Origin: an uncultured Psychroserpens sp.
GTDB lineage: Bacteria; Bacteroidota; Bacteroidia; Flavobacteriales; Flavobacteriaceae
Length of the DNA: 64,000 nt
Reading direction: 5' to 3'
Assembly: GCF_947492715.1 (NCBI RefSeq)
Contig: NZ_CANLNS010000001.1
Span: 1,178,001-1,242,000 of the forward strand
A program made the position numbers and the translations under genes. The notes under the pieces are model-generated. The model did no database searches. It was given only the letters and a program-made list of their open reading frames with translations, and was not told the origin of the DNA. Below, piece after piece: positions 15,728-32,972 of the stretch. The stretch's first letter is position 1. Each line of letters begins with the position of its first letter.

Positions 15728-15763
15728 CAAATATGATACAGTTGTACGCAGTCTTTTTACGTA
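15728..15763 (-). promoter_or_regulatory. Operator/promoter A of the island
   Basis: Palindrome TACGCA-N7-TACGTA (15745-15763, one mismatch in one arm) lies 8 nt upstream of the minus-strand -7-like element TCATATTTG (15728-15736). The spacer is identical to that of site B (AAAAGAC on the minus strand). Predicted transcription start near 15722. Confidence 0.75.
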
Positions 15764-15767
15764 ATGA

Positions 15768-16823
15768 TTAATAGTTGTTATAAAATTCTGTTCTTATAGA
15801 CGCCAACAATGTATTAATATGAGCCATGTTTGGTCGTTCCATCAAATTAGAGCTTTTATAAATATCGTCTAATTCGCTTTTCATGTGTTCGGCTTTATTA
15901 ACCAGGTCATCATATTCAAATTCGGCATTTTTCACAGACAATAAAAAATCCCGATCCAAGCGTTTCACATTAATACTCCCATCCAAACCAATTTCTTTTG
16001 CCATATGCAATAGCCTAAAAGTATGCATCATGTTTTTAGCATCATAGTTTTTGCTATGAGAGATATTGTTTTTATAGCGTTCCTCATTTCGAATATCTAC
16101 CCAGTTCCAATACTCTTTATATGTTTTACAATACGCAGAGTAGCCATCCACATTAAAATACAATACAGCTATAGGCTGTTCTGGTTTTGGTACAGAACTT
16201 AAACAAACCTCGTTGGCATTAACTCTTGCAATCCCGTTGTAATTTAGATTTTCGTGATAAAACAGGTTGTAACAATCCTTCATGTGAGGTAAATTTACTA
16301 GTCCGCAGTGTTCAGCTTTTAAATTATTATTCTTAATAAAATCTTTAAAAGGTATCGATTGTTTATCGGCTCTTATGTAACAAAAATCCTCTACTGTTTT
16401 ACGCTCTTTATCGATTGGGTTAACAATTTTTTTGTTTAAACCTCTTGCTTTTTTAATTTGAGTAAAGGCATAATTAGCAAAGGTGTTTTTGCAAAGTTTA
16501 GATAGAAAGTCTTTTTTTTCAATGCTATCAAAAATGGGATGCTTATACAGGATGCACTCGTCTGGAGCATTTAAAAGTTCTAAGATATTTGGATTGTTTT
16601 TAGACAATAACTCTACAAACTTATTCAGTTCATAATAGGCAATGTCATTAGTTTCGTTGTTAACTTGCCCAATATAATTAAGCCCATAAAACAGGTTCTT
16701 AGGCAAAATAAAAACGCCTCTTATATCTGTATCAGAAGCGGCAGTATCTAAGCCATATGCTTTACTGCCGCTAATACTTTCAAAGATGATTGCTCCAGAT
16801 GTTTTAAGATCTTCTATGGTCAT
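15768..16823 (-). CDS. Nucleotidyltransferase, YcgL/COG3541 type
   Basis: A 351-residue protein with the polymerase-beta-like nucleotidyltransferase motif ISGSKAYGLDTAASDTDIRG near residues 17-36: the GS and the two Asp (31 and 33) that bind Mg-NTP. The rest is helical and similar in plan to COG3541 proteins. Substrate is unknown; relatives sit in RNA-repair neighbourhoods, so nucleotide addition to damaged RNA ends is possible. It overlaps the next gene upstream by four bases and is a paralogue of it. Confidence 0.83.
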   Translation of the reverse strand: MTIEDLKTSGAIIFESISGSKAYGLDTAASDTDIRGVFILPKNLFYGLNYIGQVNNETNDIAYYELNKFVELLSKNNPNILELLNAPDECILYKHPIFDSIEKKDFLSKLCKNTFANYAFTQIKKARGLNKKIVNPIDKERKTVEDFCYIRADKQSIPFKDFIKNNNLKAEHCGLVNLPHMKDCYNLFYHENLNYNGIARVNANEVCLSSVPKPEQPIAVLYFNVDGYSAYCKTYKEYWNWVDIRNEERYKNNISHSKNYDAKNMMHTFRLLHMAKEIGLDGSINVKRLDRDFLLSVKNAEFEYDDLVNKAEHMKSELDDIYKSSNLMERPNMAHINTLLASIRTEFYNNY

Positions 16824-17566
16824 GATATTGTGTTTAAGAAGAAACTATTAAATTCTTCTGGATTTGATTTTTTATGCATTACATCGTTTTTTATACGATT
16901 ATTTTCTGCAACAGTTTCTCTAACCAATGTAATTAAAGTAGGATCAACTGGTTCTTGGCTTTTCTCTATTTCCCGACTTTTCAAATCAATTAAGTCATCT
17001 AATATTGAATGATATTTCATGTCGATTATAGGATAGAGCTCTTTAAATAAAACAGGCGGGATGCTCTCTTTTTTATAGATCCAATTGGCACATAAGGCTG
17101 TTCTAATCGCATAGAAAAAACTTTTAAGTGTCATTTTTTCTGTATCTAAAGTTTCTTCAAAGCCTTTACTCATACTGCTATAATGGTAAAATCCAGAAAC
17201 TGGATTAAAGTTATTTGTAGCGAGTGATTTGACGTCATTTAAAAACGATTCATTGGCTCTATAGATTACTGGAGAAAATAACCACCCTAAGAATGAAGCA
17301 TTTGATTTTGCTAATAGTTTAAGAGCCTTTCTTAAGTCCCACCCTGAACCATCAAGATCGTCATCGGTCATAAACTCTATAGTGTCTTTTTGCTCCCATA
17401 GATTCAAATACCAGTCTGTATTGTGTTTGTACACAAAACGAATGTCATAGTCTGAATCTGGAGATTCAAAACCCCAAGCCCTGCTTCCAGATTCCACTGC
17501 AAATAGGATCTCTATGTTACGCTCCTTTTCTATCTCGGAGAGTTTTTCTAGTATTTTAGTTTTCAT
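16820..17566 (-). CDS. Nucleotidyltransferase, YcgL/COG3541 type (second copy)
   Basis: A 248-residue protein with AVESGSRAWGFESPDSDYDIRF (residues 24-44), the nucleotidyltransferase GS motif and Asp-x-Asp pair. It is shorter than the neighbouring paralogue and only distantly similar outside the catalytic motif, so the pair is an old duplication or two separate families. Co-transcribed with rtcB upstream and the paralogue downstream (four-base overlap). The substrate is unknown. Confidence 0.85.
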   Translation of the reverse strand: MKTKILEKLSEIEKERNIEILFAVESGSRAWGFESPDSDYDIRFVYKHNTDWYLNLWEQKDTIEFMTDDDLDGSGWDLRKALKLLAKSNASFLGWLFSPVIYRANESFLNDVKSLATNNFNPVSGFYHYSSMSKGFEETLDTEKMTLKSFFYAIRTALCANWIYKKESIPPVLFKELYPIIDMKYHSILDDLIDLKSREIEKSQEPVDPTLITLVRETVAENNRIKNDVMHKKSNPEEFNSFFLNTIS

Positions 17567-17571
17567 TGTTT

Positions 17572-18240
17572 TTAATTTTTATTTTCCAAAAGACTATAAG
17601 CTATTGATAACCGATTAGCTTCTTCTTTATGTGTTGTGTTTAAGAAACGTTGTTCAATTTTCTCAAGGATTTTTGGATGTGCATATAATTCTGCTAACCT
17701 TTCGTTTATAGGCTGAGAATAACCTGTTAAGGCTTTATCTACAATATTTGAAATGAGCTTTTCTGAATCAGATTCTAATAAAATCTTAGATAATGTTTCA
17801 AAATCATTGTAAAGTAAATTCAATGAAATGAAATCGTCAATATGTTCCGAGTTCTCATTTAGAGCCTGTATTAGAGCACATTCTAAAACAGAGTTTATAG
17901 CTTTAATCTCTTTCGCTTCCCAACCTTCCCATTTAGCATAGTCTAACTTTTCAAAAGTTAAAAAATCCTCTCTTACATCTGCTGAAAATATTACAAGTTC
18001 TAGTATTCTTGGTAAAAAGTGCTTGTAATCTTCAACATCTCCAAAAGTGGTCATTGCTGAGGTCATAAAATGATAAATATCGTCTTTATCAAGTGATTTA
18101 ATAGGCTTAGACAATAGCATTTTTATTTCGGTATCAAAGACGCAACAATCACAACTCCTATCTCTTAAGTTTCCCAATATTGTATAAGATTTAAAAGTAT
18201 CGTATAGATGATCTATAGCTTTTAAAAGTTGTGTTTTCAT
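17572..18240 (-). CDS. Unknown helical protein with CxCC motif
   Basis: A 222-residue acidic, apparently all-helical protein. Residues 28-33 contain CDCCV, a cysteine cluster that could bind metal. No family recognised. It lies between the nucleotidyltransferases and a membrane protein in the rtcB transcription unit, with 5-bp spacers on both sides, which supports a role in the same pathway. Confidence 0.7.
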   Translation of the reverse strand: MKTQLLKAIDHLYDTFKSYTILGNLRDRSCDCCVFDTEIKMLLSKPIKSLDKDDIYHFMTSAMTTFGDVEDYKHFLPRILELVIFSADVREDFLTFEKLDYAKWEGWEAKEIKAINSVLECALIQALNENSEHIDDFISLNLLYNDFETLSKILLESDSEKLISNIVDKALTGYSQPINERLAELYAHPKILEKIEQRFLNTTHKEEANRLSIAYSLLENKN

Positions 18241-18245
18241 TGTTT

Positions 18246-18716
18246 TTAATTTTTCAAATTATGTATTGAGCGACCTATTAATTCAACGAAGGCATCAATA
18301 TTATTATTTCTTTTATAAAGATGCTTAAAAGCATTGTAATGTTCCTTATGAATCAAGTTATCGTTTTCAATTTTCACCAATCTCGGGTAACTTCTATTGG
18401 AACAATCTTTTACCAAATGTCTAGTAAGTAAATCGTGTGTTAAACTTCTTTCAACCTTGATGCAAATAATATCCTCATATTTTTCCTTAATTACTTTCGA
18501 AAGATTATAACGATTATAATAGGCATGAATAAAATAAATTTGACCATTATTGATTTTTAGAAGCTCTTTAAGTTCTGATTTATCCTTACGTTTTTGAATT
18601 CCCCCAGAAATAATAGTATAAATTATAATTGGAAGGAAAATAACCGCAGCAATTATGATAATTGGAATGGCAACTATAAAACTCATAAGTCCTCTTATAA
18701 TTTCTACTATTTTCAT
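18246..18716 (-). CDS. Small membrane-anchored unknown protein
   Basis: A 156-residue protein. Residues 10-38 (LMSFIVAIPIIIIAAVIFLPIIIYTII) form a long hydrophobic segment, probably a hairpin or one helix, followed by a basic loop QKRKDKSELK and a cytosolic domain. Family unknown. It lies downstream of rtcB after a terminator-like hairpin, so its expression may be reduced relative to rtcB. Confidence 0.65.
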   Translation of the reverse strand: MKIVEIIRGLMSFIVAIPIIIIAAVIFLPIIIYTIISGGIQKRKDKSELKELLKINNGQIYFIHAYYNRYNLSKVIKEKYEDIICIKVERSLTHDLLTRHLVKDCSNRSYPRLVKIENDNLIHKEHYNAFKHLYKRNNNIDAFVELIGRSIHNLKN

Positions 18717-18727
18717 GGTCTTGTTTT

Positions 18728-18783: not shown

Positions 18784-20211
<1,428 letters not shown>

Positions 20212-20259: not shown

Positions 20260-20261
20260 TA

Positions 20262-20297
20262 CAAATATTATAACGTATTACGCAGTCTTTTTGCGTA
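20262..20297 (-). promoter_or_regulatory. Operator/promoter B (rtcB unit)
   Basis: A perfect palindrome TACGCA-N7-TGCGTA at 20279-20297, then exactly 8 nt, then TAATATTTG (minus strand, 20262-20270), a flavobacterial -7 element. Predicted start near 20256, about 70 nt before the rtcB ATG. Confidence 0.82.
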
Positions 20298-20298: not shown

Positions 20299-21093
20299 TT
20301 AAATATATGTCTTATTTATAGTGAAATAAGTGAATAATGCTTTGAAAATAGCCTTAATATTTGTGTTAGGATAAAAGCCAGAGCTATTAATACAGTTAAT
20401 TTCTACAATTTTCCAACCGTTATGTGTTAAGCCAATATCCATTACGAAAGCGTCGGCAATATTAAAAAGGCTTATCATTTGCTTTGCAAACTGAATACCT
20501 TCTGGTGGAACATTTAACTCGAATGCGCTGTTTTCATTAAATTTATAATAACCTGCATCTATGATTTGTTCGCCTACAATCCAAAGTCTTGCTTCCTTAC
20601 GAATGTCTTGTGGCTTTGAGATTTGGATAAGCGTATTTTCGTTGAGGTTTTCTGATCGTTTACTCGCAAGTGCTTCATAAACATAATCAGACCACGTATG
20701 CTTGTTGAAAACCTGTCCTGTGAACACTTTTGCATCACGAAAAGGCTTAATAAATAATTGGGTGTTTGTTGTCCAATCTATGTTATCTGTAAGTTTCATG
20801 ACTTGAAATTCATAGTTTAACACATGGTCTTTGTAGTGTTTTGAATAGATTTCAAATAAGTGATTATTCCCATAAAATGAGTTGGGTTTCCAATCGGTGT
20901 ATTGCAATGCCAAACGTGCTAATCTTACCGAGCCATATACAAAAATATCTTGTCTATTTGTGTTGAGTTTTAAGTGTTTCGTTTCTTTTAAAACTTCAAT
21001 GGTTTCATAAGGATAATTTAGCTCATCTAACACATCGTAAATTCTGTTATGATCGGGATCTGAGTATATATTTGATTGAATTAAAAAGTACAT
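20299..21093 (-). CDS. ATP-grasp domain protein
   Basis: A 264-residue protein with an ATP-grasp C-terminal half: lysine strand LFIKPFRDAKVFTG (near 130), EARLWIVGEQIIDAGYY, and the metal-binding end FVMDIGLTHNGWKIVEINCINSSGFY. ATP-grasp enzymes join a carboxylate to an amine or thiol through an acyl phosphate. Target unknown. It is related to the protein at 24441-25166 (shared EVR/EAR strand and the VEIN/IEAN ending). It follows the 613-residue protein gene after a hairpin. Confidence 0.82.
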   Translation of the reverse strand: MYFLIQSNIYSDPDHNRIYDVLDELNYPYETIEVLKETKHLKLNTNRQDIFVYGSVRLARLALQYTDWKPNSFYGNNHLFEIYSKHYKDHVLNYEFQVMKLTDNIDWTTNTQLFIKPFRDAKVFTGQVFNKHTWSDYVYEALASKRSENLNENTLIQISKPQDIRKEARLWIVGEQIIDAGYYKFNENSAFELNVPPEGIQFAKQMISLFNIADAFVMDIGLTHNGWKIVEINCINSSGFYPNTNIKAIFKALFTYFTINKTYI

Positions 21094-21160: not shown

Positions 21161-23002
21161 CTAATTAAAAAGTTTTAAAAAACTATCTTTTTCTAAATTT
21201 TCCAAAGAGAAATCAAAATCGGCTTCGTCTTTATAATCTGTAATTTGAGCTCCTAAAGCTCTGACTAAACTATCAAAAGATAAAGATTCATTCCATTGTT
21301 GATATAAAGCTTTGGTTGCTAAATTTGATACTTCAGAATTACCAGACACTCTAGTGTGACCTGCACCAAAGTTTAATAATACAAAGCACTGTTTGTCTTT
21401 TTTGGGAATTAACATTCCTAAAATAGTTTGCTTTTGTACAGACTCACATCTAATATCTGCAAACAGTTTGTTTGGATTCATCATATAGTCTTTAGAAACA
21501 GAATCGCCTTTACCGACGATAATTTTGTAGCCACAATCGGCTGCTCCGGAAAACACATTGTTTTGAATCAAAGTAGGAACATTTAATCCCTTGTTAGCAT
21601 ATAAATATTCTACGGCGCCATTAGGTGCTGAGGTTATATCTCCAGAATACATAAGATTGCCTTGTTGTTGATTATATGCGGCATTCCAACCTACTTTACC
21701 TGCAATGTTTAAGCCTGATAAATCTAAGTCTCTTGCTCCCCAAGCATCTTCCCAATAAATACCGACTGCTAACTTTTTACCATAGAAACGCGTCCCAGTA
21801 GGAATATTTCCCACATACATTTTTTCTGATGTTGGTAAAGCATAAGTAATGTCCTCAGGAAAAAATAAGCGCTTACCTGATAAATCAAAACGTTGTTTTA
21901 AATACTTAAGCAAGAACGCGTAATTTTGCTTGAACACCGTGTTTTCAGGAACGACTCCTTTATATTTAGCTGCTTTATTTTTCTTCAAAAGATTAACAAG
22001 CATGTTCTTTCTAACTACGGTAGAAACAGTATTAGATTTGACCCAAGATTTACCATTTCTAATTCTGTATAAAAAAGCATCTTGACCTTGGTTTCTGGTG
22101 TAGCATGCCGACAATGCTTTAAACAAAGCAAAAGGCGTTGCGTTATCTAACCAGTGAATATCGTTATCTGTTATTAATGCATTTGTGACATCGTTTAACG
22201 GATTAGAAATTAAAGGCTTGTGATACGTTTTAGATAGCTTGCTAATCTTGTTGATCGTTTTAGGAGCTTTACTTTTGAATGCCAAAAACAAAGGTTTGAA
22301 TCGGTTAAAAATTTCCGCAAGTTTTTCTAATCCAAACGTATTAAATGCTTGCGCTGGATTGTATGAACTGTCTTTGATTAATTCAATTAATGCGTCGTTT
22401 TTGATTAACAAGGTGGTGTCTGTAGCTCTATAAATGATATACCTAAAAAATTCAACAGGATTACTAGGGTAGATGTCATAATACTCGGCTAATTTTACAA
22501 CGGCCTCTTTGTTTCTAATGTGTTCTTTGCCAGTAAACGTGTATCCTAATTCATCTACTAAAACAGTAATCAAGGCATCTACTGTGTCTTCTTTTAAAGC
22601 CATACCAGATGCTAAGATGTTCAAGCATTTCTGAGTCATCTCATCTATTGAATAGGCATTTATTATCTTATAGCTGAGCTTTACATTTGGAATACTTAAA
22701 ATTTCTTCTGGAATATAAATGTCATCTCGAAAGTTACTTCCATAGGTTGACAGATAGTGCTTAATTTGCTCCATGTATAACTCATATCTTGAGCTATTTC
22801 TAATTTTAAGCCACGACTTGTGGAACGTTTTATTTAGATCATTGCCACTGAGTTTTTCAGCTTTTAAAAAAGCCATGATTCTATCTTTTGCCCAAAGTGC
22901 ATTTGGTGCTATAATATAGCCTTCATCTGAGATGTATGGCTTGTCGTTTGATGTTTTCGCTAATACGGCGTTAAATAATTTTAATGTATTCATAGTATTC
23001 AT
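21161..23002 (-). CDS. 613-residue RNA-island protein, TerD-like C-terminal region
   Basis: Residues 1-320 are mainly helical and include FKSKAPKTINKISKLSKTYHKPL. Residues about 400-560 are beta-rich: GIYWEDAWGARDLDLSGLNIAGK followed by YSGDITSAPNGAVEYLYA is reminiscent of TerD-type beta sandwiches (D-x-D-x-S, then SGD). I could not find the TROVE signature or a von Willebrand MIDAS (DxSxS), so it is not a clear Ro60 protein although it sits where such a gene might. It is the first protein gene downstream of the large RNA and the intron-bearing tRNA, with ATG 42 nt after the last 40-nt repeat. Function unknown. Confidence 0.72.
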   Translation of the reverse strand: MNTMNTLKLFNAVLAKTSNDKPYISDEGYIIAPNALWAKDRIMAFLKAEKLSGNDLNKTFHKSWLKIRNSSRYELYMEQIKHYLSTYGSNFRDDIYIPEEILSIPNVKLSYKIINAYSIDEMTQKCLNILASGMALKEDTVDALITVLVDELGYTFTGKEHIRNKEAVVKLAEYYDIYPSNPVEFFRYIIYRATDTTLLIKNDALIELIKDSSYNPAQAFNTFGLEKLAEIFNRFKPLFLAFKSKAPKTINKISKLSKTYHKPLISNPLNDVTNALITDNDIHWLDNATPFALFKALSACYTRNQGQDAFLYRIRNGKSWVKSNTVSTVVRKNMLVNLLKKNKAAKYKGVVPENTVFKQNYAFLLKYLKQRFDLSGKRLFFPEDITYALPTSEKMYVGNIPTGTRFYGKKLAVGIYWEDAWGARDLDLSGLNIAGKVGWNAAYNQQQGNLMYSGDITSAPNGAVEYLYANKGLNVPTLIQNNVFSGAADCGYKIIVGKGDSVSKDYMMNPNKLFADIRCESVQKQTILGMLIPKKDKQCFVLLNFGAGHTRVSGNSEVSNLATKALYQQWNESLSFDSLVRALGAQITDYKDEADFDFSLENLEKDSFLKLFN

Positions 23003-23288: not shown

Positions 23289-23293
23289 AATGT

Positions 23294-23405
23294 AGTCCAG
23301 GTGGGACTCGAACCCACGCCCCGCGGATTATGAATCTTTACAGGAACTTTTTTATGCCTAAAGCGAAAAGTATTTTCGCTGCTCTACCTTCTGAGCTACT
23401 GGACT
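23294..23405 (-). tRNA. tRNA(CAU) carrying a 40-nt intron-like insertion
   Basis: Acceptor AGTCCAG/CTGGACT (7 perfect pairs), D-arm GCTC-AGAAGGTA-GAGC and T-arm GTGGG-TTCGAGT-CCCAC are intact. The 5' strand of the anticodon stem is split after GCG by a 40-nt insertion (23337-23376). Removing it gives GCGGA-TTCATAA-TCCGC, a perfect 5-bp stem with a 7-nt loop, U33 and anticodon CAU (23330-23332), and a normal 72-nt tRNA for Met or lysidine-modified Ile. The insertion folds back on the exon (GCGAAAA with TTTTCGC). It could be spliced, or the RNA could act as an uncharged tRNA mimic. Confidence 0.82.
23337..23376 (-). repeat. 40-nt insertion inside tRNA(CAU), repeat R1
   Basis: On the minus strand it begins AAAATACTTTTCGC and ends AAAGTTCCTGTAAA. 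Four related elements (R2-R5) follow within 300 bp, all ending in GTTCCTAT-like sequence. Both ends are A-rich. Confidence 0.75.
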
Positions 23406-23413: not shown

Positions 23414-23443
23414 AAAAAAAGCGTTCTGAGAATACCTTCGCTT
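23414..23443 (-). terminator. Terminator-like hairpin at 3' end of large RNA
   Basis: Minus strand AAGCG...CGCTT followed by seven T, immediately before the tRNA(CAU) 5' end. It could define the 3' end of the large RNA or mark a processing site; some transcripts must pass it if the downstream protein is made from promoter C. Confidence 0.65.
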
Positions 23444-25166: not shown

Positions 25167-25195
25167 TTTATTTTTTAATTACCATATAATTAAAA

Positions 25196-26014
25196 CTACG
25201 AAAGCTTCTTCCTTAATGAATTTGCCAACTCGTTTTTCAATTCGCTACGAAAACCTGAAAGCCCAGGAATATCGTTATACTCTACAATGTGTAGTTCTCC
25301 ATTTTCGTCCTCAAGAATATCAATAGCCAGAATATCTGCTTTAAGTTCTTTTTGTAGCATTAATAGCTTATTTGATATTCCTTTTAAAGGCTCTATTTCA
25401 GTAAAGTCAGTTGTCTCAATATTAGCTTTCCAATATTTTCCTTTTCTAGACATTGCCCAGATTTTGTCATTAATAATGATATATCTAATATCTCTTTTAT
25501 AATTAATATAAGGTTCTGTAGTAACGTAAGTTTTAGACACAAAAAGTAAATCTCTAATATCTTGCCATTGACTCTCATTTTGTATTAATACCTTTCCATA
25601 TCCTCCATGATAATTTCCAACTTTAACAACAAAAGGAAACTCCATCGTTATGTTTTTTAAATACGAAGATGCCGTAACTACGTTAAAGTCTATTATTGGT
25701 AGCCCCATTTTTTTAATCATAAAAAGCATGGACAATCTATCAAAACCTTTTTTTAAGGTTTCCGACGAATTCACGCAAGGAATACCGGCTAACTCTATTA
25801 AATTTAGAGCTGTCGTCTGTATTTCCGATGGGCGAATAGCTCCTACTCGCCAAAGAATCCCATCGGGTTCAATGACACTTTCAGAATCGGCTACAAACAA
25901 CCTATTGTTCTTTAATATCCATGAGGTGTTTTGAATAAACTTTTGTACTACTTTAAACTCAGGTAAAAAGTCTTGCCAATAAGTTTCTCCATTTATAACT
26001 AATATTGTTTTCAT
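25196..26014 (-). CDS. RimK-like ATP-grasp ligase
   Basis: A 272-residue ATP-grasp protein closer to RimK/synapsin-type ligases than its two neighbours. It has FPFVVKVGNYHGGYGKVLIQ (lysine strand and glycine loop, near 135), RDIRYIIINDKIWAMSRKGKYWKAN and LAIDILEDENGELHIVEYNDIPGLSG at the metal site. RimK relatives add glutamate to proteins. The frame opens at 26050 but MKTILVINGE at 26014 is the natural start, just after a hairpin. Third ATP-grasp gene of the island. Confidence 0.84.
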   Translation of the reverse strand: MKTILVINGETYWQDFLPEFKVVQKFIQNTSWILKNNRLFVADSESVIEPDGILWRVGAIRPSEIQTTALNLIELAGIPCVNSSETLKKGFDRLSMLFMIKKMGLPIIDFNVVTASSYLKNITMEFPFVVKVGNYHGGYGKVLIQNESQWQDIRDLLFVSKTYVTTEPYINYKRDIRYIIINDKIWAMSRKGKYWKANIETTDFTEIEPLKGISNKLLMLQKELKADILAIDILEDENGELHIVEYNDIPGLSGFRSELKNELANSLRKKLS

Positions 26015-26029
26015 TCTACTACTTGTTAT

Positions 26030-26065
26030 AACCTGAGCAGTATTCAACAAAGTACTGCTCAGGTT
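26030..26065 (-). terminator. Strong hairpin between RNA ligase and RimK-like gene
   Basis: A perfect 13-bp stem AACCTGAGCAGTA/TACTGCTCAGGTT. The minus-strand downstream sequence has no long T run, so termination would be partial. Confidence 0.6.
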
Positions 26066-26113
26066 TAATTACTATTCTTTTGATTAACTGAATTCTACGA
26101 AAACCACTAATCT

Positions 26114-27109
26114 TTAATACAACTGCAATAATTCTTGTCTTACAAGCTTTGCCGAGTATTGATTCAGCTGTTTTGTTAATCGTTTTTGTTCTGATTTCTC
26201 AAGAGTTTTATATTGAATTTCAAACGCTTTTAAGAAATCTTCAAAAGCATCTTTAGATAGCAAACCAATAAGTTTACCAATTTGGATACTATCCAAATTA
26301 CTTTCTTTACTCATTACATTTGCCAAACGATTAGGGTTGACATAGCGTTCTAATTCAGACAGTAAAATATGTGCCTCTTTTGACAACTCAATCTGTACTG
26401 AATGTTTTGAATTAGCTTTGCTTTTTTCGCTCCATTTCGCATTTTTATTTTTAATAATAACACGACTTCCGTTTGGTAAAAAATGTGGCTCTATAGGTTT
26501 AATAACTACACCTTCACAGATATTATCTGAGATTTCGGGTAGCTTTAACCATTCAGGAATTTTACTGTCAAAGGCATTAGGATAATCCAGCACCTCTTTT
26601 AGTATTCCTCTGCAAAGTGTTTTTGCATAGAAGAAACCGTGGGTTTCTAATAGTTGATTAACCTCAATGACGTTGAGATAAAACTCCTGATTGATCATAA
26701 TATCAAATGCATAGAACTCATTATAAGGTGCGTAAAACACTCCTTTCTGAACCTTAAATGCTCCTCTAACTTGCTCTACATCTGGATAGCTACCGCCAAA
26801 TAGCTCACCAAAAACAGTTATACTTTCTGTATTTGGGTATTTGATTTTTACAGCTTCAAAGAGAGCTAACATTTTTTCATAGTATAGCGACTTGATTGAA
26901 GCATGGTTGTAAAACGTATCAGTATCTTCTAGAATACTAGTGCGTTTTGCAGACCTTAAATCCTTCCCGTTGGTGATTAGACTAAAATTAGCACCATGTA
27001 CTTTTTCTTGCACCACAAAATCATTACTGTTTGCGGTAGCTATAGCCACACGCTCAATAAATTCTTTGCGGTATGCATTCTCGATTGAATTATATTTTTT
27101 AAACATCAT
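26114..27109 (-). CDS. RNA ligase, T4 Rnl2 family
   Basis: A 331-residue ATP-dependent RNA ligase that seals 3'-OH/5'-phosphate nicks. Motif I is EKVHGANFSLI with Lys36 as the adenylation site; RSAKRT (motif Ia), FGELFGG (motif III), ICEGVVIKP (motif IV) and IIKNKNAKW (motif V) follow in order. A C-terminal helical domain of about 90 residues completes the Rnl2 plan. Together with RtcB the island can seal both main classes of RNA break. It lies 26 bp downstream of the AlkB-like gene. Confidence 0.93.
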   Translation of the reverse strand: MMFKKYNSIENAYRKEFIERVAIATANSNDFVVQEKVHGANFSLITNGKDLRSAKRTSILEDTDTFYNHASIKSLYYEKMLALFEAVKIKYPNTESITVFGELFGGSYPDVEQVRGAFKVQKGVFYAPYNEFYAFDIMINQEFYLNVIEVNQLLETHGFFYAKTLCRGILKEVLDYPNAFDSKIPEWLKLPEISDNICEGVVIKPIEPHFLPNGSRVIIKNKNAKWSEKSKANSKHSVQIELSKEAHILLSELERYVNPNRLANVMSKESNLDSIQIGKLIGLLSKDAFEDFLKAFEIQYKTLEKSEQKRLTKQLNQYSAKLVRQELLQLY

Positions 27110-27135
27110 AATTTTATGGTTTTAAGGGTTAATAA

Positions 27136-27669
27136 TTATTTTAATTTTCTAAACGTTAAACTTATTCTTCCGTTTTCAGTATTAGCTTTTGTTATGGCAT
27201 GTTGCCATATATTTTGGATCTCATTATTCACGTAAATCAATGAACCAGGTATAAGATTAAAGTCTACAGTCATACTTCTATCTTCGATATTTCTGAAGCA
27301 AAGTGTTCTTGTTTCTCCAATAGAGATAATTGCTACGCCTGTGTTTTCTTCAAGTATATCTATCTGGTCAGAATGAAACCCCATTCTTGAACTTCCATTT
27401 TCATAATAATTGATTAAGCAGTTATTAGATCTATAACCAACTAATGCTTCAATAGAATCCCTAATTTCTTCTAGTTCTTCTGTGAATTCCTGAAAAAGAT
27501 ATTCCATCTGAGCGTAATTGTAAGGCCTACCAAAACTTGCTGTTTTTCTATTAGCCATACGCGTATCCCATATGGTATTACTTATTAAGGTTTCAAATAA
27601 TAAAGCATGATTGCTTAAAAAGTTTTCTATGTAAACTATTCCTTCCATGATTGTATTAAACGGCTTCAT
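27136..27669 (-). CDS. AlkB-like 2-oxoglutarate/Fe(II) dioxygenase
   Basis: A 177-residue AlkB-superfamily protein that would remove alkyl groups from nucleic acid bases. The iron ligands His99-x-Asp101 (GFHSDQ) and His157 (WQHAITK) and the 2-oxoglutarate-binding Arg168 and Arg174 (GRISLTFRKLK) are visible; NYYENGSSRMGFHSD matches the AlkB NxYxDGxxxxxxHxD layout. Short N-terminal domain. Its place beside RNA ligase and tRNA genes suggests RNA, not DNA, as substrate; that is inference. Confidence 0.9.
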   Translation of the reverse strand: MKPFNTIMEGIVYIENFLSNHALLFETLISNTIWDTRMANRKTASFGRPYNYAQMEYLFQEFTEELEEIRDSIEALVGYRSNNCLINYYENGSSRMGFHSDQIDILEENTGVAIISIGETRTLCFRNIEDRSMTVDFNLIPGSLIYVNNEIQNIWQHAITKANTENGRISLTFRKLK

Positions 27670-27762
27670 CTCATTTTAAGAGTTCTGCCAGGTTCTAGGC
27701 TAATTAAAACCCAGCAGAATCCCTTATAAAAAGAATAGGAATCTATTCTAGAGTGAAGTATT

Positions 27763-28248
27763 TTAAACCACTTTATCTGCGCAAGATGAACTTGCAAAAG
27801 CATGTGGTTTTGCTTTAAAAACAAAGCCCATTCCAAGAATGTAACCCATAGCATCTTTTAGGGCTACGTTAGATTGAAATTTTGGATCTGTATTGATATC
27901 GGCATGAACCTCTAAAGCAACATCGTATTTATCTAGAATATCACAAATAGTATAAGCGACTTCTACAGACATTGTTACTTCCTTGAGCATTCGTTCTTTA
28001 ATACCAATGTGTTTTGTGCCTTTGTAATTTCTCATAAACATGAATCCACCTTTTCCTTCACGTAAAACCACAATAACAGTAGCATACTCAATATGAGATT
28101 TATAGGCTTGAGAATCTGAACCTACACAAACCTTTAAGCGATATCCAGCATTTTGCTCTTTCACAATGGCGCTTTCAATCAATTCTGTAATAGGTTGATT
28201 GTAGATTTTCCCACTAAAATTTCTCCATTTTTGTTGTACGATTTTCAT
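27763..28248 (-). CDS. YkuK-type RNase H-like protein
   Basis: A 161-residue protein of the DUF458/YkuK family, an RNase H fold. CVGSDSQAYKSHIEYATVIVV (near 41-61) holds the first catalytic Asp45; ALEVHADINTDPKFQSN carries further acids, and AFASSSCADKVV closes the domain. Nuclease activity is predicted, not shown, for the family. It begins 35 nt downstream of the last tRNA of the array, so it probably shares the array's transcript. Confidence 0.85.
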   Translation of the reverse strand: MKIVQQKWRNFSGKIYNQPITELIESAIVKEQNAGYRLKVCVGSDSQAYKSHIEYATVIVVLREGKGGFMFMRNYKGTKHIGIKERMLKEVTMSVEVAYTICDILDKYDVALEVHADINTDPKFQSNVALKDAMGYILGMGFVFKAKPHAFASSSCADKVV

Positions 28249-28283
28249 TGGTCTTCATAGTTTAAATTAATAACAATTACTGC

Positions 28284-28355
28284 GGAACAAACTGGATTTG
28301 AACCAGTATCTTCTGGGCTTCAACCAGACGCATAGACCTACTTTGCTATTGTTCC
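28284..28355 (-). tRNA. tRNA-Phe(GAA)
   Basis: Acceptor GGAACAA/TTGTTCC perfect; anticodon arm TCTGG-TTGAAGC-CCAGA. Last gene of the array in transcription order. Discriminator base is G instead of the usual A of tRNA-Phe. Confidence 0.92.
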
Positions 28356-28362
28356 TTTTTAG

Positions 28363-28434
28363 GGTGATTCCGAGATTCGAACTCTGTTCTCCTCATTCAC
28401 AGTGAGGTACTTTACCACATAAGCTAAAACCACC
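28363..28434 (-). tRNA. tRNA-His(GUG), no encoded G-1
   Basis: Acceptor GGTGGTT/AATCACC, anticodon arm CCTCA-CTGTGAA-TGAGG, discriminator C. The base before G1 is T, so the extra 5' G that bacterial HisRS needs is not encoded; one T-stem pair is also lost. Confidence 0.88.
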
Positions 28435-28444
28435 ATATTTTAGT

Positions 28445-28516
28445 TCTGATAAAAGGATTTGAACCTTTATCCACAAACGTATCAGGTTTGTACTTTACCA
28501 GTTAAGCTATATCAGA
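28445..28516 (-). tRNA. tRNA-Ile(GAU)
   Basis: Acceptor TCTGATA/TATCAGA, anticodon arm CAAAC-CTGATAC-GTTTG, T-arm AAAGG-TTCAAAT-CCTTT. All pairs form; begins with T1-A72. Confidence 0.92.
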
Positions 28517-28522
28517 ATATGT

Positions 28523-28592
28523 TAACCTGACAGGATTCGAACCTGTACCGGAAGATTCAAAATCTTCCATGCTGCCGTTACACCACAAGTTA
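28523..28592 (-). tRNA. tRNA-Gln(UUG)
   Basis: Acceptor TAACTTG/CAGGTTA, anticodon arm GAAGA-TTTTGAA-TCTTC, T-arm ACAGG-TTCGAAT-CCTGT. U1-A72 is normal for glutamine tRNA. Confidence 0.93.
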
Positions 28593-28598
28593 ATTTGT

Positions 28599-28669
28599 AG
28601 GTTTAATAGGATTCGAACCCATACCACAAGGGTCGAAACCTTGCATGCTATCCATTACACCATAAACCT
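28599..28669 (-). tRNA. tRNA-Arg(UCG)
   Basis: Acceptor AGGTTTA/TAAACCT perfect, anticodon arm CAAGG-TTTCGAC-CCTTG, T-arm ATGGG-TTCGAAT-CCTAT. The UCG anticodon could read all four CGN codons when U34 is unmodified. Confidence 0.92.
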
Positions 28670-28675
28670 AATTGT

Positions 28676-28748
28676 ACTTCGCCTTGGATTCGAACCAAGA
28701 AATCACAGCGCTTAAAACTGATGCCTTTTCCAGTTTGGCCAGCGAAGC
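28676..28748 (-). tRNA. tRNA-Leu(UAA) with short variable loop
   Basis: Acceptor GCTTCGC/GCGAAGT, 3-bp D-stem GCC/GGC with a large D-loop as in leucine tRNAs, anticodon loop TTTAAGC (TAA). Only five bases (GATTT) separate the anticodon stem from the T-stem CTTGG, so the long class II arm is missing. Confidence 0.85.
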
Positions 28749-28754
28749 ATAAGT

Positions 28755-28827
28755 ACAGGAAGAGAGACTCGAACTCTCAAAATCTTGTTTCTAAAACAAG
28801 AGTGTATGCCAATTCCACCATTCCTGC
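28755..28827 (-). tRNA. tRNA-Leu(UAG) with short variable loop
   Basis: Acceptor GCAGGAA/TTCCTGT, D-stem GTG/CAC with large loop, anticodon arm CTTGT-TTTAGAA-ACAAG, then only ATTTT before the T-stem GAGAG. The class II variable arm expected in bacterial leucine tRNA is absent. Confidence 0.87.
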
Positions 28828-28833
28828 AGTTGT

Positions 28834-28906
28834 TGAGATGTCAGGAATCGAACCTGAATCCTTCGCCTTATGAGAGCGATGCTCTACCAGATTAAGCTAC
28901 ATCTCA
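28834..28906 (-). tRNA. tRNA-Met(CAU)
   Basis: Acceptor TGAGATG/CATCTCA perfect, anticodon arm TCGCT-CTCATAA-GGCGA, T-arm TCAGG-TTCGATT-CCTGA. Elongator Met or a lysidine-modified Ile tRNA; T1-A72 pairs, so it is not a typical initiator. Confidence 0.9.
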
Positions 28907-28912
28907 ATATGT

Positions 28913-28984
28913 TGAGGTAATAGGATTCGAACCTATGACTTTCACGATGTAAGCGTGATGCTCTAACCACTGAGCTATACCTCA
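28913..28984 (-). tRNA. tRNA-Val(UAC)
   Basis: Acceptor TGAGGTA/TACCTCA perfect, anticodon arm TCACG-CTTACAT-CGTGA, T-arm ATAGG-TTCGAAT-CCTAT. Confidence 0.94.
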
Positions 28985-28990
28985 ATTTGT

Positions 28991-29061
28991 ACTCTATAAG
29001 GGAATCGAACCCTTGTCTTCCGGTAGAAAGCCGTTTGCACTAACCACTATGCTAATAGAGC
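28991..29061 (-). tRNA. tRNA-Glu(UUC), weak anticodon stem
   Basis: Acceptor GCTCTAT/ATAGAGT, T-arm AAGGG-TTCGATT-CCCTT. Anticodon loop CTTTCTA gives TTC, but only three pairs (CGG/CCG) close it; 27-43 and 28-42 are mismatched, and position 37 is T. Confidence 0.85.
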
Positions 29062-29092
29062 ATGTTTTTCTTTTATGGCGTTACCCTAAAGG

Positions 29093-29156
29093 GGCAGGCT
29101 TTCGGTAGTCGCTCTCTGCGAGGAGCTTCAACAATACCTCAATCCTTAACGCGGTT
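29093..29156. repeat. Dispersed intergenic repeat, copy 2
   Basis: Matches 3390-3454 over about 64 bp (GGCAGGCT, AGTCGCTCTCT, CGAGGAGCT, ATCCTTAAC). It separates the Glu and Asp tRNA genes and is the only large gap in the first half of the array. Confidence 0.6.
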
Positions 29157-29163
29157 GTTTAGC

Positions 29164-29234
29164 GGTTCATACGAGAATCGAACTCGTGTCTCCCGAGAGA
29201 CAGTCGGGAAGGATAGCCATTACCCCAATGAACC
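29164..29234 (-). tRNA. tRNA-Asp(GUC)
   Basis: Acceptor GGTTCAT/ATGAACC perfect, anticodon arm CCCGA-CTGTCTC-TCGGG, T-arm ACGAG-TTCGATT-CTCGT, discriminator G as expected for Asp. Confidence 0.92.
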
Positions 29235-29241
29235 ATATTGT

Positions 29242-29418
29242 ACATCTACTAGGATTAGTTCGTATCATACATATTGTTATAAATATGTACTCATGAACGC
29301 TTCGCGTTTCGAACCAAAGAACCTAAAGATTAGAAATGCGCAGCATTCACGAACACCTTCATTTAAAATAAAAATGGGTGAGCTAAATCTTTAGTGCTAT
29401 CCCTTACACCATAGATGT
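29242..29418 (-). pseudogene. tRNA interrupted in anticodon loop and T-loop
   Basis: Acceptor ACATCTA/TAGATGT is perfect and the D-arm GTGT/GCAC is intact. The anticodon stem AAAGA/TCTTT is separated by 58 nt instead of 7, and the T-loop (TTCGAA ... AAT) by about 60 nt instead of 7. Both extra segments fold (AACGC/GCGTT; ACATATT/AATATGT). If the loop insertion is removed TTTCTAA (anticodon UCU, Arg) is one possible product. A repeat insertion that killed the gene is the simplest reading; a large spliced or regulatory tRNA-like RNA is the alternative. Confidence 0.6.
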
Positions 29419-29434
29419 GTGTTATTAATTATGA

Positions 29435-29505
29435 GCATCTATCGAGACTCGAACTCGAAACTATAGATTGGAAGTCTACTATGTTGCCAATTACACCATA
29501 GATGC
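29435..29505 (-). tRNA. tRNA-Gly(UCC)
   Basis: Acceptor GCATCTA/TAGATGC perfect, anticodon loop CTTCCAA (TCC), T-arm TCGAG-TTCGAGT-CTCGA. Its acceptor and D-arm resemble those of the interrupted tRNA next to it. Confidence 0.92.
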
Positions 29506-29512
29506 TTATTGT

Positions 29513-29593
29513 AGGAATCATAGGATTCGAACCTATTTAGCTTTAGCACCAGTTTTACAGACTGGCTCAACTCTCCAACGTTGACGCATTCCC
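29513..29593 (-). tRNA. tRNA-Tyr(GUA)
   Basis: An 81-nt class II tRNA: anticodon arm CCAGT-CTGTAAA-ACTGG, an 11-nt variable arm (TGC/GCTA), T-arm ATAGG-TTCGAAT-CCTAT. The acceptor has one G-G mismatch at 7-66. Confidence 0.9.
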
Positions 29594-29602
29594 GTATTTT
29601 GA

Positions 29603-29674
29603 GACAAGGATGAGGATCGAACTCATAAAAATTGGTGTTGCAGACCAACGCCTTAGCCATTCAGCCACCTTGTC
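29603..29674 (-). tRNA. tRNA-Cys(GCA)
   Basis: Acceptor GACAAGG/CCTTGTC perfect, anticodon arm TTGGT-CTGCAAC-ACCAA, T-arm ATGAG-TTCGATC-CTCAT. Confidence 0.92.
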
Positions 29675-29680
29675 TTTTGC

Positions 29681-29751
29681 GATACCGATAGGATTCGAAC
29701 CTATAACCTGATGGTTAACAACCAACTGCTCTGCCTTTGAGCTACGATATC
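29681..29751 (-). tRNA. tRNA-Asn(GUU)
   Basis: Acceptor GATATCG/CGGTATC with one T-G pair, anticodon loop TTGTTAA (GTT), D-stem GCTC/GAGC, T-arm ATAGG-TTCGAAT-CCTAT. Confidence 0.92.
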
Positions 29752-29758
29752 ATTTTGT

Positions 29759-29830
29759 GGAGCTACGGAGACTTGCACTCCATTCTGCGAATTGCAAATC
29801 CACTGTTTTGGCTTGTTAAACTATAACCCC
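29759..29830 (-). tRNA. tRNA-Ala(UGC)
   Basis: Acceptor GGGGTTA/TAGCTCC contains G3-U70, the alanine identity pair. Anticodon loop TTTGCAA (TGC) on GTGGA/TTCGC. The T-loop is TGCAAGT, so U55 is replaced by G. Confidence 0.88.
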
Positions 29831-29840
29831 ATTATGTTGC

Positions 29841-29926
29841 GGAGAGTAAAGGAATTGAACCTTCACCGCGATATTGCGGACTTGTTTAGCAGACAAGCGC
29901 AACAAACCAATATTTGCCTACCCTCC
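29841..29926 (-). tRNA. tRNA-Ser(GCU)
   Basis: An 86-nt class II tRNA: anticodon arm CTTGT-CTGCTAA-ACAAG and a long variable arm with CCGC/GCGG. Acceptor GGAGGGT/ACTCTCC, discriminator G as for serine. Confidence 0.92.
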
Positions 29927-29979
29927 AAAATATTTTTCAAGAGCATTTTTAATTTTATTATAAATACTCATGTTTTTAA

Positions 29980-30036
29980 TGGTGCATTTCCATGCGCCAT
30001 CTGGCACGTTCACTAAAAATGTCTACTAGACATTTT
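29980..30036. other. Two hairpins in the gap between Ser and Pro tRNAs
   Basis: TGGTGCA/TGCGCCA (29980-29999) and AAAATGTCT/AGACATTTT (30016-30036) are strong stems in a 128-bp tRNA-free gap. The second is followed on the minus strand by TTTTTAG, so it may be a terminator or an extra small structured RNA. Confidence 0.5.
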
Positions 30037-30054
30037 CTTAACGTTCCGTCCTGT

Positions 30055-30125
30055 CTAAGAGACAGGATTCGAACCTGCAACCTCTCACTTCCAAAGCGAG
30101 TAAACAGCCATTGTTATTCTCCTAG
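30055..30125 (-). tRNA. tRNA-Pro(UGG)
   Basis: Acceptor CTAGGAG/CTCTTAG starts with C1-G72, the bacterial proline pattern. Anticodon arm CTCGC-TTTGGAA-GTGAG. Position 8 is A instead of U. Confidence 0.88.
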
Positions 30126-30131
30126 TTTTGC

Positions 30132-30217
30132 GGAAGGAGTGGGAGTCGAACCCACACGAGTCGTAATCTCCGAACACTTTTCAAGAGTGTGGCCACCGCC
30201 TATTGGCTTGTCCTTCC
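30132..30217 (-). tRNA. tRNA-Ser(UGA)
   Basis: Class II: acceptor GGAAGGA/TCCTTCC perfect, anticodon arm ACACT-CTTGAAA-AGTGT, long variable arm, discriminator G. Confidence 0.93.
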
Positions 30218-30225
30218 TGGTTTGT

Positions 30226-30298
30226 TGACGCAGTGAGAGTCGAACTCACATCACCTCGATTAAAAGTCGAGTGCTTTAGCCAGTTAAGCTACGCGTCA
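30226..30298 (-). tRNA. tRNA-Lys(UUU)
   Basis: Acceptor TGACGCG/TGCGTCA (one G-T), anticodon arm CTCGA-CTTTTAA-TCGAG, T-arm GTGAG-TTCGACT-CTCAC. First gene of the array in transcription order, 28 nt after a terminator. Confidence 0.93.
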
Positions 30299-30325
30299 GT
30301 ATTATTTAATTTCGGTTTACACCAT

Positions 30326-30362
30326 AAAAAAAGCACCTCTTTTTAAGGAAGGTGCTTTTCTT
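30326..30362 (-). terminator. Intrinsic terminator upstream of tRNA array
   Basis: Minus strand AAAAGCACCT pairs with AGGTGCTTTT and is followed by seven T. It closes the short ORF at 30383-30511; it has T runs on both strands and could work in both directions. Confidence 0.85.
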
Positions 30363-30750: not shown

Positions 30751-30783
30751 AAAAAAAGCGCCCAACTTTTAGGTTGGGCGCTT
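30751..30783 (-). terminator. Strong intrinsic terminator after 41-residue ORF
   Basis: Minus strand AAGCGCCCAAC/GTTGGGCGCTT, loop CTAAAA, followed by seven T and then a second T run. It gives promoter D a transcript of about 200 nt. Confidence 0.9.
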
Positions 30784-30810: not shown

Positions 30811-30936
30811 TCACAATGCTCTCTTTAAAATATGCATGAAACGCCCACGAAGATGATTGAGTTCAATGACCATCCATCTATAATCGCATCCACTAAAGTG
30901 CGATATCGGTTGTTTATGTATTAATTGTTTTACCAT
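30811..30936 (-). CDS. Short basic ORF, 41 residues, under operator D
   Basis: ATG at 30936 begins MVKQLIHKQPISHFSGCDYR and the frame ends LKRAL at TGA 30811-30813. The peptide is basic (several Lys, Arg and His) with one Cys. It is the only ORF between promoter D (start near 30950) and the terminator at 30751-30783, so a dedicated operator and terminator frame it. That placement supports either a small protein or a small RNA of about 200 nt. No relative is known to me. Confidence 0.6.
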   Translation of the reverse strand: MVKQLIHKQPISHFSGCDYRWMVIELNHLRGRFMHILKRAL

Positions 30937-30955: not shown

Positions 30956-30991
30956 CAAAGATTATGTGTTAATACGCATTGTTTTTGCGTA
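30956..30991 (-). promoter_or_regulatory. Operator/promoter D (41-residue ORF)
   Basis: A perfect palindrome TACGCA-N7-TGCGTA (30973-30991) followed by 8 nt and TAATCTTTG (minus strand, 30956-30964). Same layout as sites A-C. Predicted start near 30950. Confidence 0.82.
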
Positions 30992-32492: not shown

Positions 32493-32581
32493 TGTTTTTT
32501 ATTTTAATAATTTGTTTGGTGCGAAAACATTCGCTTTAGCCCATAATTTGAGCCTTATATTTTAACTGTTTGGAGGAGGTT

Positions 32582-32595
32582 TAGCAGATCTGCTA
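32582..32595. promoter_or_regulatory. 14-bp perfect palindrome upstream of the TPR gene
   Basis: TAGCAGATCTGCTA is a perfect inverted repeat about 90 bp upstream of the TPR-protein ATG. It may be an operator but is unlike the ACTACGCA sites. Confidence 0.35.
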
Positions 32596-32607
32596 TAGAC
32601 TGAAAAC

Positions 32608-32646
32608 AAAAAATCCGAAACAGTTAAACAAGTGCTTCGGATTTTT
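32608..32646 (-). terminator. Terminator after 24-residue ORF
   Basis: Minus strand AAAAATCCGAA pairs with TTCGGATTTTTT around a 16-nt loop, ending in a T run 22 nt after the short ORF. T runs on both strands allow bidirectional use. Confidence 0.8.
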
Positions 32647-32667
32647 CATTGTGTTTGAAAATGTATA

Positions 32668-32742
32668 TTAACTATACGCTCGAAGCATCACAGAAAGGGC
32701 TTTTCCCTCTGGATTTCCTGAAATAGGTATGAATAAATACAT
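32668..32742 (-). CDS. Very short ORF, 24 residues, unknown
   Basis: ATG at 32742 encodes MYLFIPISGNPEGKALSVML plus RAYS and a TAA. A promoter-like TAAATATTTG lies about 60 nt upstream on the minus strand and a terminator follows, so this is a compact independent unit. Residue choice is not random-looking (no rare codon run, no stop in 75 nt), yet the length is too small for certainty. The rest of 32743-32941 is AT-rich with no other feature seen. Confidence 0.4.
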   Translation of the reverse strand: MYLFIPISGNPEGKALSVMLRAYS

Positions 32743-32941
32743 AGCTTCGTGTTTTAGTTAATATTAATTTTTTGCCTGAATTGTTTAATTCGCTGTTGCA
32801 AATATTTAGATTTATTTTTCAATTTTCAAAATTTATTTTTTCATTTTCTGAAAATTTCCAGCCTTAATACATAGTATTAACTTTTTTTGAAAAAACAAAA
32901 TCTGAATTCAAGTTTTTCGTTTTTTACTTGAATTTCATCAC

Positions 32942-32972
32942 TACGCAGTATAATTGCGTATATTTAATTTTG
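32942..32972 (+). promoter_or_regulatory. Operator/promoter E (CAP-protein and WYL-regulator operon)
   Basis: A perfect palindrome TACGCA-N7-TGCGTA (32942-32960) in + orientation followed by 4 nt and TAATTTTG (32965-32972), an exact TAnnTTTG -7 element. Here the spacer is shorter by four bases than at sites A-D. Predicted start near 32979, 19 nt before the first ATG. Its place in front of the WYL gene suggests autoregulation. Confidence 0.8.

Follow-up and report, generated by a model that had tools for sequence, protein, structure and literature searches.

An RNA-repair island of an uncultured Psychroserpens sp. carries five copies of a 19-base-pair (bp) palindrome, and we hold with considerable confidence that RNA repair is switched on through these five sites by a WYL activator resembling DriD, which in this genome is fused to a 2-oxoglutarate oxygenase. 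The island lies in a 64,000-nucleotide stretch of contig NZ_CANLNS010000001.1 (positions 1,178,001 to 1,242,000; hereafter the window), which encodes the predicted regulator, a protein of 574 amino acids (aa), at 35305-37029. An earlier note, made from the sequence of the window, had proposed that the palindromes define a regulon and that the WYL protein is its regulator. Comparison supports both proposals: 59 of 79 usable loci have the palindrome no more than 300 bp ahead of the WYL start, an ortholog of the WYL gene accompanies the operator in 22 of 24 site-bearing genomes, and the operator shares the skeleton of the DriD operator.

A pattern scan of the window places the five sites where the earlier note had put them (Table 1). 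The palindrome TACGCA-N7-TGCGTA is exact at 20279, 30973 and 32942 and has one mismatch each at 15745 and 24409; the literal string of that note, ACTACGCA-N7-TGCGTA, holds at only three of the five sites. The spacings stand as described, with 8 nucleotides (nt) before a 9-mer ending in TTTG at four sites, where TTTG thus starts at +14, and 4 nt before TAATTTTG at the fifth; a TAAT start, however, is found in only two of the four 9-mers. The genome of the window (4.2 Mb, 99.95% complete) was scanned whole, and the palindrome is not common in it; the earlier note had said that a high frequency genome-wide would speak against a regulon. All three exact sites (3/3) lie inside the island, compared with one match for the backwards control pattern, and the island holds five of the six sites with at most one mismatch, compared with four for the control. 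The sixth, at C3:370224 outside the island, lacks a spaced TTTG and is therefore probably a chance occurrence. The matches clearly exceed chance expectation: in 100 shuffles there were no exact matches and at most four with up to two mismatches, compared with seven observed. Each minus-strand operator stands just after the stop of the preceding open reading frame (ORF; stops at 15768, 20299, 24441 and 31009), and the island can therefore be described as a series of head-to-tail units plus a CAP-WYL pair on the opposite strand.

Table 1 Operators, genes and RNAs of the island, numbered from the first letter of the window
Feature	Position	Strand	Description
231-aa protein and SDR protein	13650-15709	-	Downstream of operator 1; then tRNA genes at 13299-13640
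Operator 1	15745-15763	-	TACGTA-N7-TGCGTA; one mismatch (one arm TACGTA); no ACT ahead; TTTG of -7 element at 15728-15731
Remainder of rtcB unit	15768-18716	-	156-aa and 222-aa proteins, RlaP (16820-17566), second RlaP match (15768-16823)
RtcB RNA ligase	18784-20184	-	Pfam RtcB; first gene downstream of operator 2
Operator 2	20279-20297	-	Exact; upstream of rtcB; TTTG at 20262-20265
R2K-type ATP-grasp protein	20299-21093	-	Last gene of operator 3 unit
613-aa protein	21161-23002	-	Homologues in other loci
tRNA-like RNA	23293-23405	-	Enlarged anticodon arm; tRNA-type match in operator 3 leader
GOLLD-like RNA, conserved 3' region	23420-23897	-	Rfam RF02032, 138.8 bits, E 2.8e-38, full model 1-416
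Operator 3	24409-24427	-	One mismatch (one arm TGCGCA); upstream of GOLLD-like RNA, tRNA-like RNA and 613-aa protein; TTTG at 24392-24395
tRNA array (28282-30298) with RNaseH-like, AlkB-like, Rnl2, ATP-grasp and R2K genes	24441-30298	-	Island members
Terminator-like hairpin	30756-30783	-	3' of 41-aa ORF; 11 pairs, 7 GC
41-aa ORF	30811-30936	-	Directly after operator 4; 68% identity over 38 aa in two Psychroserpens loci (L001, L002)
Operator 4	30973-30991	-	Exact; upstream of conserved 41-aa ORF; TTTG at 30956-30959
Operator 5	32942-32960	+	Exact; 21-mer from 32940; TAATTTTG at 32965-32972; CAP gene start 37 nt beyond end of operator
CAP-domain protein, 767 aa	32998-35301	+	Ends just ahead of WYL gene
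Predicted regulator, 574 aa	35305-37029	+	Winged helix-turn-helix, WYL, WCX and PhyH-type 2-oxoglutarate oxygenase; Pfam WYL, WCX, PhyH

Palindrome and spacing recur in related loci. The comparative set consists of the best 80 of 101 relatives found with the 574-aa WYL-PhyH protein as query, from classes that we take, on the basis of record titles, to be Flavobacteriia, Cytophagia, Sphingobacteriia and Saprospiria; one bin among them carries the label Thalassovita. The alignment extends through most of the PhyH part in 31 relatives and covers only residues 1 to ~340 in 48, and the remaining one (L030) is cut by a contig end. These loci were picked via the WYL gene and are by themselves no proof of a link between operator and WYL. 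TRCGCA-N7-TGCGYA occurs 120 times in 74 of the 80 loci, compared with no occurrence of the reversed control; absence from orthologous islands, which the earlier note had also named as adverse, is thus not what is seen. The arms are conserved across the set; the second base is G in 33% of left arms and its counterpart is C in 60% of right arms, and one side therefore often reads TGCG or CGCA. A TTTG stands at +14 from the palindrome in 108 of the 120. In a wider set, which allows one mismatch and includes the window (132 palindromes), TTTG starts exactly at +14 in 116 (117 counted strand by strand, one having it on both strands), compared with 7 at the next most frequent offset. The Bacteroidota promoter consensus is TTTG / TAnnTTTG. 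Among the 117 spaced sites, TTG is found at the -33 place in one and TA opens the -7 element in two, T (36%) and A (60%) each being common singly at the opening positions. Nearly all of these promoters thus have neither a -33 box nor a full -7 box, and weak promoters of this kind would be those expected for activator-dependent genes.

The predicted regulator resembles known WYL activators. Its structural model (predicted local distance difference test score 80.8) contains a winged helix-turn-helix (HTH), a WYL domain, a WCX domain and a PhyH cupin; the HTH is recognized from the model alone, and the wing (67-93) is of low confidence. Helices at 95-109, 118-135 and 154-164 lie between HTH and WYL in the model, with residues ~137-147 at low confidence; they may correspond to the three-helix-bundle linker of DriD-type activators. 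The best Foldseek match is DriD with single-stranded DNA (ssDNA) and DNA (E 1.3e-11), followed by PafBC and then by 2-oxoglutarate oxygenases, and a profile search likewise places DriD first and PafBC next. Single domains superpose well, as with the DriD C-domain (9cu3_A; template modelling (TM) score 0.75, 2.9 Å). Conservation in a 32-row alignment is highest in the HTH helices (0.84-0.86), followed by the wing (0.80), the next segment (0.75), WYL (0.67), WCX (0.66), PhyH (0.65) and the linker (0.53). The PhyH domain is fused to the regulator in one branch of relatives. The HxD...H metal motif of PhyH 2-oxoglutarate oxygenases is present in the window protein (WHQD, LLLHASS) and kept in most PhyH-bearing rows of the alignment. 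HxD and the distal H look lost in the Aureispira rows L023 and L028, and the motif is partly changed in L029. The WYL protein very probably binds the palindromes.

The association of operator and WYL gene extends to genomes chosen on other grounds. We examined 296 genomes of the phylum sampled irrespective of WYL, the window's own genome being included as an exception. The palindrome with TTTG at +14 is found in 24 of them, compared with three for the backwards control. WYL relatives at E 1e-30 are present in 56 genomes, in 35 of which they are at least 46% identical (orthologs, below). An ortholog is encoded in 22 of the 24 site-bearing genomes (Fisher P = 4e-22) and, with the own genome excluded, in 21 of 23 (P = 3e-21); in the looser set of 56, a WYL relative accompanies 23 of the 24 (P = 6e-18). 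RtcB is encoded in 61 of the 296 genomes. The site occurs in just one (G070) of the 30 genomes that have RtcB without an ortholog and in three of the four that have an ortholog without RtcB, and therefore tracks WYL rather than RtcB: operator presence follows WYL, and RtcB alone is no predictor.

Several observations weigh against this reading. The 46% identity cut was chosen after the table had been seen, and the Fisher tests ignore kinship, related genomes not being independent; counted by genus, the association is 12 of 14 (P = 2e-12). Thirteen of the 35 ortholog-bearing genomes lack a strict spaced site. Among the loci from 11 of these 13, five have a palindrome with up to two mismatches without TTTG at +14, and six have none at that tolerance in the first 2.2 kb scanned. 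G070 has the site and no ortholog, and no same-strand ORF follows the site within the fetched stretch, while another genome (G007) has the site with only a 30% homologue beside it. On the structural side, whole-chain superposition on DriD is poor (root-mean-square deviation about 20 Å, TM 0.51 of target), and the profile match spans WYL-WCX only. Finally, the site ahead of the WYL gene is without a fixed -7 element in the WYL direction. In the G007 locus (L129), an exact palindrome at 6227 lies beside the start of a WYL homologue of 28-30% identity, and its +14 TTTG faces a 211-aa ORF; from this case, the operator may predate the ortholog group.

If another DNA-binding protein read the palindrome, with the WYL gene merely its frequent neighbour or target, the strict site could be missing from 13 of 35 ortholog-bearing genomes as it is, and the evidence for the WYL protein is mostly co-occurrence. 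Against such a reader, the link holds in the genomes sampled irrespective of WYL (own excepted) and is not explained by RtcB, the DriD operator described in PMC12340889 has the same skeleton, and the palindrome stands ahead of the WYL gene itself in most usable loci. We consider this alternative very unlikely and retain the WYL protein as the predicted regulator.

Judged by promoter architecture and by its relatives, this protein is probably an activator rather than a repressor. A repressor that binds the palindromes and is released by its ligand, turning the genes on, would have precedents in known WYL repressors such as the defence regulators BrxR and CapW. The operator covers the -33 place, which also tells against activation, as a protein bound there could block polymerase, and TrcR of Anabaena, a functional analogue, represses (PMC10272220). 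With TTG at the -33 place in 1 of 117 sites and TA at the -7 element in 2 of 117, however, there is little basal promoter to repress, and a spacing that is identical to the base in 116 of 132 palindromes is typical of an activator touching polymerase. DriD and PafBC, the nearest solved relatives, are both activators. Repression is thus the strongest of the alternatives that we weighed and still an unlikely one.

The earlier note had further suggested that the WYL protein controls its own gene. The operator is indeed conserved before the WYL gene, or before a CAP gene ahead of it: in five of the 20 loci outside the 59 (L001, L002, L004, L006 and L031) a CAP gene lies in between, and for 31 of the 77 palindromes within 700 bp upstream of WYL starts in 110 loci, the gap to the start codon is 36-43 nt. 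The TTTG at +14, where present at the WYL-side palindrome, nevertheless faces rtcB or another divergent gene, and the TAATTTTG that lies 4 nt after operator 5 is not conserved in the two nearest Psychroserpens loci. Self-activation, read from the operator before the WYL gene, was dropped on finding that the fixed -7 element points at the divergent gene. The WYL gene thus shares the operator, and may itself be activated, repressed or indifferent.

Genes that follow the operator are mainly those of RNA repair and associated functions. Targets were counted in the 110 loci plus the window, which together hold 123 sites with a spaced TTTG; the two genome sets may share species. The first ORF encodes RtcB at 51 sites, SPFH at 18, Ro60 at 15, a 195-aa family at nine, RNA ligase at six and RlaP at two, and is unclustered or absent at 22, three of them in the window. 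Pfam searches of representatives confirmed TROVE/Ro60, Band_7, RNA_lig_T4_1 and RlaP, identified Hen1 for one singleton, and gave no match for representatives of the 195-aa family. Further stretches (19 from 15 genomes and one from the own genome) include sites on contigs apart from that of the WYL gene, before SPFH (L118, G277; with a 119-aa ORF between) and before Ro60 (L121, G265). In G088, sites precede SPFH, a homologue of the 613-aa protein and an RNA ligase, with a 14-tRNA array nearby. In G289 (L125), the operator is followed by an RNA ligase, a 241-aa ORF, a 226-aa homologue of the 231-aa protein, an SDR protein and three tRNAs, an order that looks much like the unit after operator 1. 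Other remote sites precede a DUF3892 protein (L114) or RNase T plus endonuclease V (L113), and Pfam gave no match for the genes examined after some others (148 aa in L111; 224 and 277 aa in L112; 111 and 511 aa in L120; 306 aa in L128).

This diversity also bears on whether the palindrome is an operator at all. As a mobile-island repeat that spreads together with its promoter or functions as a hairpin in RNA, it would suit an island rich in tRNAs and phage-type genes, whose 613-aa protein also occurs on viral contigs. Judged by the -7 element, however, it should lie upstream of the transcription start. In other families it is followed by unrelated genes on separate contigs, the 80 loci show conservation of its arms, and the stretches examined of two viral contigs with the 613-aa protein contain no palindrome by the criteria used. 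We regard a mobile repeat as highly improbable and the palindrome as an operator. The strict operator pattern matched three contigs filed as viral. On L135, a site at 3370 with spaced TTTG is followed after ~160 nt by an RtcB-like gene (22-25% identity); on L133, a site at 568 with spaced TTTG lies ~390 nt before an R2K-like fragment truncated by the end of the stretch; and on L134 the operator adjoins nothing in the reference set. No regulator relative was confirmed on viral contigs. A further viral contig (L132, 8001-12127) has a 65% homologue of the 613-aa protein beside 18 tRNA genes.

Within the island, the earlier list of targets (an SDR/tRNA unit, rtcB with nucleotidyltransferases, a large RNA with the 613-aa protein, the 41-aa ORF and the CAP/WYL operon) is mostly correct, but the 'large RNA' contains two RNAs, one GOLLD-like and one tRNA-like, and the tRNA array may not be driven by operator 4, a terminator-like hairpin standing between them. 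Both RNAs lie in the 1.4-kb leader after operator 3. The GOLLD-like RNA, which likely spans about 24385 to 23410 in full, scores 138.8, below the Rfam gathering score of 150; its E value of 2.8e-38 passes the cut of 1e-5 used to collect GOLLDs in PMC12286853, the search sizes being different. The match resembles GOLLD RNAs in covering the full model and in lying near a tRNA-like RNA and a tRNA array, GOLLDs being often near tRNA islands by the account in PMC12286853; it differs in its sub-gathering score and in its place in a chromosomal RNA-repair island, the GOLLDs described there coming from prophages or phages. It stands under the same operator class as rtcB. Oversized tRNA matches similar in length to the tRNA-like RNA precede homologues of the 613-aa protein in L116 (15640-15750 and 15823-15940), L119 (7503-7611) and the viral contig L131 (1523-1634), and an alignment shows an anticodon-arm core common to the window and to the L116 and L119 copies, a fifth row (L002) fitting poorly.

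Operators before SPFH genes are followed by RNAs of another type. The RNAs named yrlBA are Y-RNA-like, and sub-threshold YrlA-like RNAs were found in the SPFH leaders of four of the five SPFH loci scanned permissively (L013, L067, L116 twice, and L118, but not L003), with scores of 31.8 to 38.3 at five leader places compared with an Rfam gathering score of 69. They recur between the operator and the SPFH gene, for example at 6944-7058 in L013, 7637-7981 in L116 and 12827-12945 in L067. A model built from five leader RNAs and used to scan 59 of 131 sources gave 40 matches with E values up to 0.05. Thirty exceed 36 bits, from 29 loci and including the five training sequences; all 30 have a same-strand operator upstream (up to two mismatches, TTTG at +14 or +15), within 1 kb in 25. 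Without the training sequences, the operator lies within 1 kb upstream in 20 of 25. The ten weaker matches, among them tandem tRNAs of the window, were excluded.

We considered the tRNA array as the target of operator 4 but do not retain it, given the strong hairpin of terminator type that follows the 41-aa ORF and a second hairpin before the array. The second, conserved and with a T run (~30310-30350, minus strand, just 5' of the array), was seen by eye in the alignment and is absent from the terminator list of the tool. For the 613-aa protein, Pfam and family searches gave no convincing family. The tRNA at 13299-13371 (minus strand), in the group behind the SDR gene, is called selenocysteine by ARAGORN (anticodon tca) and could be a UGA-reading tRNA.

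In the mechanism that we propose, two winged-HTH domains would bind TACG-N11-CGTA at the -33 place, with the TTTG of the -7 element always 14 nt further on, and the bound WYL protein would, like DriD, keep RNA polymerase at promoters that are too weak by themselves. The regulator would be switched on by a nucleic acid bound in its WYL domain, for which the targets make broken RNA the likeliest candidate, and the regulon would then yield RNA ligases, end-healing enzymes, the GOLLD-like RNA, the tRNA-like RNA and associated proteins. RNA damage as the signal is suggested by the targets and by the sensing of tRNA fragments with cyclic phosphate described for RtcR (PMC7790460), and we place it slightly short of an even call. 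In PMC11804915, ssDNA activates PafBC whereas the single-stranded RNA tested does not, which counsels caution in assuming an RNA ligand. PMC9503650 suggests in general terms that CARF and WYL factors, of which some control RNA repair, might sense cyclic-phosphate RNAs. A broader scheme, offered tentatively, is an RNA-damage response widespread in Bacteroidota (24 of 296 sampled genomes have the strict site) in which one WYL activator may sense broken tRNA or rRNA and one operator class may deploy RNA ligases, Hen1, RlaP, Ro60 with Y-RNA-like RNAs, SPFH, spare or decoy tRNAs and, here, a nanocage of GOLLD-like RNA in which tRNAs are sheltered or by which they are replaced, the fused oxygenase being a second sensor or an RNA-modifying output. 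A sequence-defined regulon would tie RtcB, Ro60 with Y-RNA-like RNAs, Hen1, RlaP, RNA ligases and a GOLLD-like RNA, several of them with bacterial functions still under question, to one regulator. The specificity of the operator would allow sequence alone to place genes without known function in RNA repair, and the inducing signal could be found through whatever turns the operator on. In many related bacteria the operator adjoins the likely regulator gene, and the proposed damage-response circuit is directly testable.

Three known systems are compared here. A search of titles and abstract openings found no operator like this one and no WYL regulator of RtcB in Bacteroidota; the survey of RNA-repair neighbourhoods by Burroughs and Aravind (2016) possibly mentions one. 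The closest system is DriD of Caulobacter, a homodimeric WYL activator of the type that responds to single-stranded nucleic acid, and the top Foldseek and profile match, with which the regulator shares the order winged HTH-WYL-WCX. PMC12340889 gives for DriD the consensus ATACGAC-N7-GTCGTAT, a site over -35, a constant distance to -10 and nonoptimal promoters; the operators described here have the same TACG-N11-CGTA skeleton, lie over the corresponding -33 place, mostly at a constant distance from the -7 element, and belong to weak promoters. The two differ in the inner two bases of the half-site (AC/GT in DriD, CA/TG here), in the genes served (DNA damage there, predicted RNA repair here) and in the C-terminal 2-oxoglutarate oxygenase domain carried by one branch of the regulator here. 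In role, the nearest counterpart is RtcR, the sigma-54 activator of rtcBA in Proteobacteria, which by the account in PMC7790460 is encoded beside and divergently from an operon holding RtcB and the Ro60 protein Rsr, much as the WYL gene adjoins and diverges from rtcB or another target. RtcR is a CARF-AAA+ sigma-54 activator, whereas Pfam finds neither CARF nor sigma-54 AAA+ domains in the regulator at 35305-37029. The -7 elements of the island promoters are presumably of the main sigma type, unlike the sigma-54 promoters of RtcR. TrcR of Anabaena, as described in PMC10272220, is a ribbon-helix-helix repressor of a tRNA array, rtcB, rimK and other genes that overlaps or lies near -10. It thus also places RtcB, a tRNA array and a RimK-type ATP-grasp protein under one regulator, and a slipin-family protein is raised in its mutant (PMC10272220); regulator family, motif and mode of action (a repressor at -10) are unrelated, and domain content and site position of the WYL regulator differ from those of a ribbon-helix-helix repressor over -10. 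By domain content, the WYL regulator is best viewed as analogous in role to RtcR and TrcR and unrelated to them in family. The comparison suggests that DriD-type WYL activators serve RNA damage besides DNA damage, and that similar RNA-repair kits have been placed under unrelated regulators several times: RtcR, TrcR and, here, a WYL protein.

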